Of a stretch of DNA of 64,000 bases, positions 25,734 to 35,485 are shown piece after piece. The notes under the pieces are model-generated. The model saw nothing but the letters and a program-made list of their open reading frames with translations. It was not told where the DNA came from and ran no database searches. Position numbers and translations under genes: made by a program. The number at the start of each line of letters is the position of its first letter. The first letter of the stretch is position 1. The DNA is from an uncultured Pelagibacteraceae bacterium (GTDB lineage Bacteria; Pseudomonadota; Alphaproteobacteria; Pelagibacterales; Pelagibacteraceae). The stretch covers positions 1-64,000 of the forward strand of contig CABXTC010000002.1 of NCBI GenBank assembly GCA_902515095.1, written 5' to 3'.

Positions 25734-26495
25734 ATGAATAAAAAAACTATTTGGATTACAGGTGGGAGCACTGGAATTGGTAAAGCTCTAGCTTTAAAAT
25801 TTGCTGATAAAGGTTGGAATGTTGCTATTTCTGCAAGACGTGAGCATTTATTAAAAGAAATTTCAGATAAAAATGAAAATATAAGTGCTTTTCCATTAGA
25901 TGTAACTAACCAAAATAATTGTAAAGAAGTTTTTAATCAAATTCAAAATAAATTTGAAAATATAGATATATGTTTTTTTTCAACCGGTACTTGGAATCCA
26001 AAAAAAGAAAAAGATATTGATGTTGAACAAATTGAAAATGTTTTCAAAGTTAATTTTTTTGGAACTTTAAATAGTATAAAAGCTGTTGAAAATTATTTTA
26101 AAAATAAAAAAAGCGGAACTATTACTATAGTTTCATCAATAGCAGGTTATCGTGGGCTACCTAATTCAACTGGATATGGACCATCAAAGTCAGCTTTAAA
26201 TAATCTTGCTGAAAGTTTATATTTTGATTTTGGCAAGTCAAATGTTCGTGTGTGTTTGGTTTCACCAGGTTTTATTAAAACTCCTATGACAGATAAAAAC
26301 GATTTTAAGATGCCTTTTTTGAAAACTCCCGAATATGCTGCTGAAAAAATTTATGAGGGTTTGATAAATAAAAACTCATTTGAAATTCATTTTCCAAAAT
26401 CGTTGACTCTCATATTAAAAATTTTGAGTTTTTTACCAAACAAGATTTATTTTGGATTAATAGGAAAGCTAACAAAATACCAAAAAAAAAATTAG
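25734..26495 (+). CDS. Short-chain dehydrogenase/reductase
   Basis: The 253-residue protein has the SDR cofactor loop TGGSTGIG (10-17), DVTN, a catalytic serine in IVSSIAG and Tyr/Lys in STGYGPSKSA, followed by VCLVSPGFIKTPM. The C-terminal segment is Lys-rich and hydrophobic and may touch the membrane. Substrate unknown. In other proteobacteria an SDR of this type is found with the CFA-synthase, DUF1365 and COG2907 genes, which here lie 2-5 kb away on the other strand. Confidence 0.84.
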   Translation: MNKKTIWITGGSTGIGKALALKFADKGWNVAISARREHLLKEISDKNENISAFPLDVTNQNNCKEVFNQIQNKFENIDICFFSTGTWNPKKEKDIDVEQIENVFKVNFFGTLNSIKAVENYFKNKKSGTITIVSSIAGYRGLPNSTGYGPSKSALNNLAESLYFDFGKSNVRVCLVSPGFIKTPMTDKNDFKMPFLKTPEYAAEKIYEGLINKNSFEIHFPKSLTLILKILSFLPNKIYFGLIGKLTKYQKKN

Positions 26496-26533
26496 TATCT
26501 AAATTTAATAGAAATGCAAAAAGTAGGTAAAAA

Positions 26534-26589
26534 AGATAGCCCTTAAAAACCGGGAGCTAAAGATGGCTAAGAAGGACTATCTAAAATAG
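26534..26589 (+). ncRNA. Candidate structured leader with a short upstream reading frame
   Basis: GATAGCCCTT (26535-26544) pairs with AAGGACTATC (26572-26581), 9 of 10 positions, extended by one A-T pair. The loop holds GGGAG (26552-26556) and an ATG at 26563 that opens an 8-codon frame, MAKKDYLK, ending TAG at 26589. A competing short hairpin CTAT/ATAG overlaps the 3' arm. The G+C content is visibly above the surroundings. It could be a riboswitch-like leader, an attenuator or a small RNA. I cannot match it to a known class. Confidence 0.4.
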
Positions 26590-26644
26590 TATATCAAATC
26601 TGAAAAAAAAATGCATTAAAGAATTTTTTAAATATAAAGGATTT

Positions 26645-26941
26645 ATGAAAAAAAAAGGTCACAGGCCACTCACAAGGGTCAAAAATCCAGAGCCAAATAT
26701 TGAAGATCCAGATTGGGTCATTTGGGCAGCCTGGGCTGACAGGATCACTTTTGAAGAAATAGAAAAAAAAACTGGTTACAAAGAATCCGATGTAATTAGG
26801 AAAATGAGAAGATCTCTAAAACCTTCCTCATTTAGATTGTGGAGAAAAAGAGTAAATCAAAAAAGTATTAAGCATAGAAAAAAGTTTGAATATTCAAGAA
26901 AAAAAATAACTAGTAAAATTAAAAAAGGTGACTATCTATAA
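26645..26941 (+). CDS. TIGR03643/DUF2805-type small protein
   Basis: A basic 98-residue protein. WVIWAAWADRITFEEIEKKTG and ESDVIRKMRRSLKPSSF around residues 25-60 read like a helix-turn-helix unit, and SFRLWRKRV follows. This matches my memory of the TIGR03643 (DUF2805) family of unknown function, found mainly in marine bacteria. The Lys-rich C-terminus could bind nucleic acid. An AAAGGA site precedes the ATG. The structured region upstream may control it. grxC follows after 3 bases. Confidence 0.75.
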   Translation: MKKKGHRPLTRVKNPEPNIEDPDWVIWAAWADRITFEEIEKKTGYKESDVIRKMRRSLKPSSFRLWRKRVNQKSIKHRKKFEYSRKKITSKIKKGDYL

Positions 26942-35291: not shown

Positions 35292-35454
35292 ATTAACTCT
35301 TTGTACCCATCTGTATATTTGCCTGAGAGTTTTGCTCCTTCGGCGAGAATTAAATCTCTTTCCAGAGTTAATATGTTACGGTCCTTTTTACCTGAGAGAT
35401 TCCTGGGTGGTTGCTCCTTCGGCGCTACGATATTCTGTAGTCTCTCCCGTAAAA
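35289..35454 (-). promoter_or_regulatory. Tandem glycine riboswitch controlling gcvTHP
   Basis: On the minus strand two glycine aptamers lie head to tail. Aptamer 1 (about 35454-35376) starts with GGGAGAGAC, has GCGCCGAAGGAGCAA and CTCTCAGG, and closes with P1 TTACGG/CCGTAA. Aptamer 2 (35375-35289) has CTCTGGAAAGAG, CGCCGAAGGAGCAA and CTCTCAGGC. These are the family's conserved cores. The P1 of aptamer 2 is a perfect 12-bp pairing, CATATTAACTCT with AGAGTTAATATG, and the last three bases are the gcvT ATG. Almost no linker separates the aptamers. Confidence 0.93.
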
Positions 35455-35456
35455 GA

Positions 35457-35485
35457 ATAATCTTACATGTGCATGAAAAAGTCAA
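35457..35485 (-). promoter_or_regulatory. Promoter of the gcv operon
   Basis: TTGACT (35485-35480) and GATTAT (35462-35457) are 17 bases apart on the minus strand. The start point would fall at about 35450, at the first bases of aptamer 1. The -35 box overlaps the stop codon of the upstream EamA gene, consistent with extreme compaction. Confidence 0.6.

Follow-up and report, generated by a model that had tools for sequence, protein, structure and literature searches.

A hairpin RNA of SAR11 bacteria as a probable trans-encoded antisense RNA of a polycationic micro-protein gene

The loop of RNA-OUT, a stem-loop antisense RNA of about 70 nt from IS10, pairs with the translation start of its target mRNA. 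IstR-1, which acts on tisB, and other trans-encoded type I antitoxin RNAs form a near-perfect pairing of about 20 nt with the mRNA of one very small protein, and Hfq-dependent trans sRNAs cover the Shine-Dalgarno sequence and the start codon of mRNAs from other loci. The element treated here belongs to the rhtB RNA family. Meyer et al. (2009; PMC2704228) used G+C content to rank the intergenic regions of SAR11; among their less well supported motifs is the rhtB RNA (Rfam RF01814), a bulged hairpin found in SAR11 and in marine metagenomes. The text of that paper on the motif notes the lower stem as an inverted repeat, mentions a U-run in about half of the examples, suggests that the motif may have a regulatory function, may be a terminator or may be an inverted repeat in DNA, and gives no target. 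It is the sole paper with the term "rhtB motif" that was found by a name search of open-licence PMC papers; in the passages searched, the main texts of PMC5069720 and PMC3840354 do not name rhtB. Within the open-licence PMC literature, as distinct from subscription papers, no earlier target or transcript study of RF01814 was found. We analysed one copy of this element in its genomic context; the window is the whole stretch of 64,000 nucleotides of Pelagibacteraceae DNA. What is known is the element, and what is new is its target, the evidence for the pairing and its interpretation as an antisense RNA that acts in trans.

The hairpin, its strand and its promoter

Comparison of the whole window with Rfam (cmscan) gave two matches, namely RF01814 and a glycine riboswitch (RF00504, 65 bits, 35369-35459, minus strand). 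The former covers the model in full length and lies above its gathering score. The features of the locus are as follows:

26517-26599, minus strand: match to Rfam RF01814 (rhtB RNA), full model 1-83, 81.3 bits, gathering score 55, E 1.2e-14
26535-26581, minus strand: 47-nt hairpin with an outer stem of 10 bp, an inner stem of 4 bp (AGCC/GGUU) and a 13-nt loop AUCUUUAGCUCCC, according to the pairing in the alignment
26588-26596, minus strand: extended -10 promoter element TGATATACT of the RNA gene, of the form TGnTAnnnT, 5' of the hairpin
26529-26534, minus strand: run of six U directly 3' of the hairpin, by its sequence a probable intrinsic terminator
26552-26570, minus strand: antisense stretch UUAGCCAUCUUUAGCUCCC (loop and inner 5' arm), complementary at 18 of 19 positions to GGGAGCUAAAGAUGCCUAA, which lies outside the window (G000:C3:91774-91756)
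26645-26941, plus strand: gene of a TIGR03643 / DUF2805 protein (TIGR03643 90.6 bits, PF10985), a divergent neighbour and not the proposed target
25734-26495, plus strand: short-chain dehydrogenase gene (PF00106), a convergent neighbour in the usual place of rhtB

The initial annotation had proposed a structured, conserved and hitherto undescribed RNA in a G+C-raised SAR11 intergenic region, and had suggested the comparison with Rfam. Its structural claim is upheld by the RF01814 match and by the genus-wide spread of the element; its claim of novelty fails because RF01814 had already been published by Meyer et al. (2009; PMC2704228).

For the analysis of the structure we read 84 loci of the element, chosen by a loop word within three substitutions together with the left arm, and these contain 30 distinct hairpins. 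In the alignment of the 30 hairpins 99.3% of the 416 stem cells (10 + 4 pairs) are paired and five pairs have changed on both sides; none of 500 shuffles came as high in pairing, double changes or covariation, and 15 of 500 reached the observed number of further pair types. Thus the covariation and the stem conservation by which the initial annotation wanted to be judged are present; the short frame that it named alongside them is unconserved, measuring from 2 to 28 codons over the 84 loci and merely 2-3 codons in 30 of them.

The strand follows from the non-canonical cells. Read on the minus strand, the distinct hairpins contain 38 G.U cells (28 from a single inner pair, 10 from the outer stem), no A.C and three U.U mismatches; therefore a plus-strand reading makes 38 mismatches and gains no pair. 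The folding z of the 56 nt is -3.77 on the minus strand versus -1.82 on the plus strand. Additionally, the extended -10 element TGnTAnnnT is found on the minus strand in 77 of the 84 loci, where it ends 6-9 nt 5' of the hairpin, and 200 letter shuffles of the upstream sequence gave it in 6 loci on average and in 13 at most. The RNA was thus assigned to the wrong strand by the initial annotation. Further 5' of the -10 element, at a fixed distance in the same 77 loci, we observe a conserved AATGCAT word with A- and T-tracts (about 26610-26619 in the window), which is possibly a -35 variant or the site of a regulator. A T-run of at least five within 12 nt 3' of the hairpin is present in 32 of the 84 loci only. 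Judged by its sequence, the element is a minimal RNA gene that consists of an extended -10, the 47-nt hairpin and, in part of the loci, a terminator. Its predicted product of about 53 nt would extend from 26581 to 26529, the 5' end near the hairpin foot being deduced from the position of the -10 element.

The letters between 26534 and 26589 agree with their first description: GATAGCCCTT ... AAGGACTATC is present, as are GGGAG at 26552, the ATG at 26563 that opens MAKKDYLK and, further upstream, the ATG at 26514 with its 10-codon frame; the alternative CTAT/ATAG hairpin is visible too. The nine of ten stem pairs counted on the plus strand are borne out, and on the minus strand all ten form, the A.C there being a G.U. 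GGGAG and ATG are the mirror image of the loop of the minus-strand RNA. In summary, the earlier observation is partly confirmed and its interpretation partly supported.

The complementary gene start beside carD

The genome of the window, which is 92.6% complete, was searched with the plus-strand word GGGAGCTAAAGATGGCTAA at up to three mismatches. Two places were found, the element itself and C3:91756-91774 on the minus strand, with one mismatch, and the reversed control word gave no place in this genome at the same threshold. The second place comprises the Shine-Dalgarno sequence, the spacer and the start of a 25-codon Lys/Arg/Ala gene, and the locus reads in order TTGACA, a palindrome ACGAATCA/TGATTCGT, GGGAG, CTAAAG, ATG, MPKRRKKAKKAKKKAKKKAKKRRRR, a hairpin with T-runs and the convergent carD. 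In 76 target loci of the genus, chosen for having such a frame, the frame is 20-30 codons long. TTGACA occurs within 110 nt upstream of the start in all 73 loci with enough sequence, both palindrome halves (CGAATC and GATTCG) occur in 71 of these 73, and a 3' hairpin with a T-run follows in the 21 target loci displayed. With its promoter word, palindrome, Shine-Dalgarno sequence, frame and 3' hairpin the target looks like a real gene. The palindrome ACGAATCA-loop-TGATTCGT stands just 5' of the ribosome-binding site of the micro-protein in L002 1453-1600 (G000:C3) and in other genomes; it could be a 5' stabiliser or an operator.

The gene is not confined to the genus. A covariance model of the start region (R2), which is A-rich and short-calibrated, matches 203 of the 247 family genomes at E 0.01, and the frame is present in 16 of the 17 target loci read outside the genus. 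Two versions of the micro-protein had no match in Pfam or NCBIfam. The model R2 did not find the target start in four of the 76 genus genomes (G004, G292, G334 and G375), which are 94-96% complete and all carry the RNA. Also, at least 23 of 104 RNA-bearing genomes, mostly less complete assemblies, show a single site, and a 24th (G043) has only a poorly matching second one. Because the target start was not found in some RNA-bearing genomes, we hold our confidence in the antisense reading at 0.80.

Eight weaker sites with two or three mismatches, part of those listed, were considered as further targets and rejected, as their frames of 5-42 codons are unlike ordinary gene starts. In a viral collection 17 contigs contain the 17-mer, 16 of them before a frame of at least 40 codons and one before 2 codons. 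By eye none of them has the hairpin or the polycation, hence the plus-strand word seems to be simply a good ribosome-binding site there.

The pairing between the two loci was read in 30 genomes over 17 core columns, that is 510 cells, of which 503 pair (500 Watson-Crick, 3 G.U) and seven are mismatches. Four of the seven are an uncompensated C.C at codon 2, where the codon is CCU; they come from four of the 30 read pairs, our own genome included, and many more rows of this CCU sub-group (TAGGCATC) stand in the site listings beyond the 30. The other three are at core columns 1-2 in G125 and G351, both at column 2 and one also at column 1. A matched change is seen at core column 7, the spacer base before the ATG, which is C:G in most genomes and U:A in some. 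Among the 69 genomes of the target tree for which both alleles are available (39 canonical RNA alleles were taken from the site listings), 13 are variant at both loci, 56 are canonical at both loci and none is mixed. Over all 399 genus genomes the variant word was found in 16, at both loci in 13 and at one place in three (G508, G066 and G458). In G508 and G066 the RNA was not found and TIGR03643 is missing too, so that at most one genome of the 399, G458, could be discordant.

The number of independent matched changes is small. In the tree of the target locus (76 loci) column 7 changes four times, three of these changes are forced and a single clade is rejected. A small tree of the RNA flank (TIGR03643 and glutaredoxin, 181 columns) gave one change of the RNA allele, with a support of 70 for the variant clade. 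Because of this conflict longer regions, up to 20 kb in length, surrounding the two loci were taken from 40 genomes (39 rows for the RNA region) and analysed with FastTree. The RNA-region, target-region and joint trees have three changes each, and the starred branches force three, two and three of them, respectively. A sign test on the three matched pairs gives p 0.25, as three pairs cannot reach significance; three matched events are few.

The spacer of the mRNA adds to this picture. In the 76 genus loci it is CTAAAG in 59, CTAAAA in 15, TTAAAG in one and unparsed in one, whereas 14 of the 16 loci read in other genera have some other spacer, nine different ones in all, of which five occur in the seven g2 loci. 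Two CTAAAG cases lie outside the genus: G163 (g13, 69% complete, RNA not found) and G210 (g9, 6% contaminated, with a genus-like protein). The target start is therefore held nearly constant where the RNA exists. The G210 locus itself (G210:C29:41589-41692) has a genus-type start region with a 41-residue version of the micro-protein, and is possibly a foreign contig.

The predicted loop-target duplex has an energy of -28.8 kcal/mol here and of -26.1 to -38.1 kcal/mol in eleven other genomes; the best of 63 ORF starts of the window reaches -16.0, and the best of 1000 shuffled loops -25.6, so that none of the 1000 is as low. In silico, then, the RNA is complementary to the mRNA of another locus at its translation start, and the pairing is kept by matched changes in the 69 genomes, as would be expected of a trans-encoded antisense RNA. 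We regard its strand, its structure, the complementarity and the upkeep by matched changes as supported at the level of sequence comparison.

Distribution, neighbours and competing explanations

In 118 of the 151 genomes of the genus, many of which are 50-90% complete, RF01814 scores above the cut-off. In the family draw of 247 genomes it was found in 73, namely 71 of the 76 genus genomes, one genome each of g11 and g14, and none of the remaining 169. Our own model R1, run on 38 genomes, found the RNA in none of the 11 genomes of other genera besides g11 and g14, with one weak match (E 0.07), and no such element lies 5' of TIGR03643 in seven genomes of g2, g3, g4, g5, g9 and g12. Seven genus genomes without a found RNA were checked for TIGR03643, which is lacking in six and partial in one; assembly gaps may therefore explain the absent RNA. 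Weak RF01814 matches in g2 and g4 (G306, G191, G243 and G366) were rejected as target starts, since none has such a start, and in a third weak match, on C10 of our own genome, no hairpin or loop match was seen. A 3.2-kb contig filed under a Cytophagales MAG (L290, JAPYTU010000121.1) carries the RNA word and is possibly misbinned SAR11 DNA.

One might argue that the hairpin acts on rhtB in cis, as a leader or attenuator before the start of that gene, and that its loop has some other meaning. The name of the family and Meyer et al. (PMC2704228) suggest so, as does the U-run in about half of the examples in their text; an RhtB/LysE gene (PF01810) follows 3' and in the same direction in 58 of the 84 loci, and in G082 its ATG comes 12 nt after the hairpin. 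However, the association with rhtB gives the family its name and is not part of its model, and the hairpin is kept without a found rhtB in the window and in 25 other loci (with one RhtB query; two of the 26 are cut by a contig end). Of the 82 loci with enough sequence, 24 have the RNA but no rhtB within 1.5 kb. The window's copy is not placed 5' of rhtB on its strand: no rhtB was found within 1.5 kb of it in this genome, and the next gene is convergent. Moreover, a cis leader leaves the complementarity to a distant mRNA and the matched changes unexplained. Thus we consider it unlikely, and note that the hairpin may have a second, cis role in the genomes that bear rhtB.

A pair resembling a type I toxin-antitoxin system, in which the RNA silences a harmful small peptide, would account for the short peptide and for a trans antisense RNA over its ribosome-binding site, as is familiar from IstR/TisB. 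Yet genera without a found RNA also retain the peptide gene, similar in sequence, and the peptide is polycationic, unlike a toxin of the membrane type, which makes this explanation very unlikely. It could also be that the shared 18-mer is the DNA or RNA site of one protein at both loci, with no pairing between two RNAs: the conserved word does occur twice in one genome, and the lower stem is an inverted repeat, as PMC2704228 remarks of the motif too. But the word runs from the Shine-Dalgarno sequence to codon 2 at one locus and is a hairpin loop of the complementary strand at the other, the matched change would require about three switches of the protein's site, and the changes at core column 16 (3 of 30) are compatible with G.U, although those at columns 1-3 are not; we regard such a site as highly improbable. 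The initially annotated alternative, in which a regulatory micro-frame sits in a plus-strand leader of the TIGR03643 gene, has in its favour a well-spaced GGGAG and ATG and the most constant neighbour of the element (in 79 of 84 loci TIGR03643 lies on the 5' side of the RNA and points away from it), but can practically be dismissed, given the G.U to A.C count, the folding z, the promoter on the other strand and the unconserved micro-frame, which we rejected.

The proposed mechanism and its relation to known systems

We propose that the element is a trans-encoded antisense RNA which acts without Hfq and prevents translation of the polycationic micro-protein, and give this a probability of roughly 0.8 from the sequence comparisons. 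A self-contained gene on the minus strand would yield an RNA of about 53 nt, which starts at the hairpin foot and here ends in the U-run. The loop and the inner stem would act as the trans-acting seed of a duplex of about 18 bp, which takes in the Shine-Dalgarno sequence, spacer, AUG and second codon of a single mRNA, and would thereby keep the 30S subunit off the mRNA of the 20-30-codon Lys/Arg/Ala protein beside carD. The most straightforward consequence would be that 30S subunits fail to bind, because the loop stretch covers just these parts of the mRNA. The stem would serve as scaffold, as protection and, where a U-run follows, as terminator. Hfq (PF17209) was found in none of 11 SAR11 genomes (G000 and ten others) by a search in which five of 14 controls gave a signal; no Hfq should be needed, since the pairing is long and SAR11 seems to be without it.

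We infer the transcription of the RNA, a repression of the mRNA, as against its destabilisation or activation, and the role of the polycation, which probably binds nucleic acid. The mRNA gene is kept in genera without a detected RNA, hence it can do without control by the RNA. A more tentative idea, which we hold less likely than not, is that one genus has gained a hairpin RNA of about 50 nt, the entire loop of which is antisense to the start site of one mRNA, and that this RNA sets the level of a polycation of 20-30 residues coating nucleic acid, in the nucleoid or in an RNP. If true, it would be a genus-wide switch on the state of the chromosome or the ribosome in the regulator-poor SAR11 bacteria, which are among the most abundant cells of the sea. 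With the antisense reading RF01814, whose function has stood unstated since 2009, gains a single conserved target, and this in the dominant bacteria of the surface ocean; the finding suggests control by trans RNA base pairing in a lineage without a found Hfq, and it draws attention to a gene beside carD, retained in much of the family, that encodes a polycationic micro-protein.

The nearest known relative is the rhtB RNA itself, with which the element shares the hairpin, the conserved loop, the SAR11 host and, in the published description, the place between a hypothetical gene and rhtB; compared with the text of PMC2704228 on the motif, a target mRNA with matched changes is added here, and the window's copy has no rhtB next to it. 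The antisense RNA proposed here resembles Hfq-dependent trans sRNAs in covering the Shine-Dalgarno sequence and the start codon of a distant mRNA, and differs from them by a lineage with Hfq in 0 of 11 genomes, by a longer pairing and by one target at no more than three mismatches in 19. To IstR-1/tisB it is similar in being trans-encoded and in its long, near-perfect pairing with one micro-protein mRNA; contrastingly, the peptide that it targets is a polycation, and relatives in which no RNA was detected have kept it. With RNA-OUT of IS10 it has in common a stem-loop antisense RNA whose loop is directed against a translation start. However, RNA-OUT is encoded opposite its target within a transposon, whereas the Pelagibacter RNA is encoded in the chromosome far from its target.
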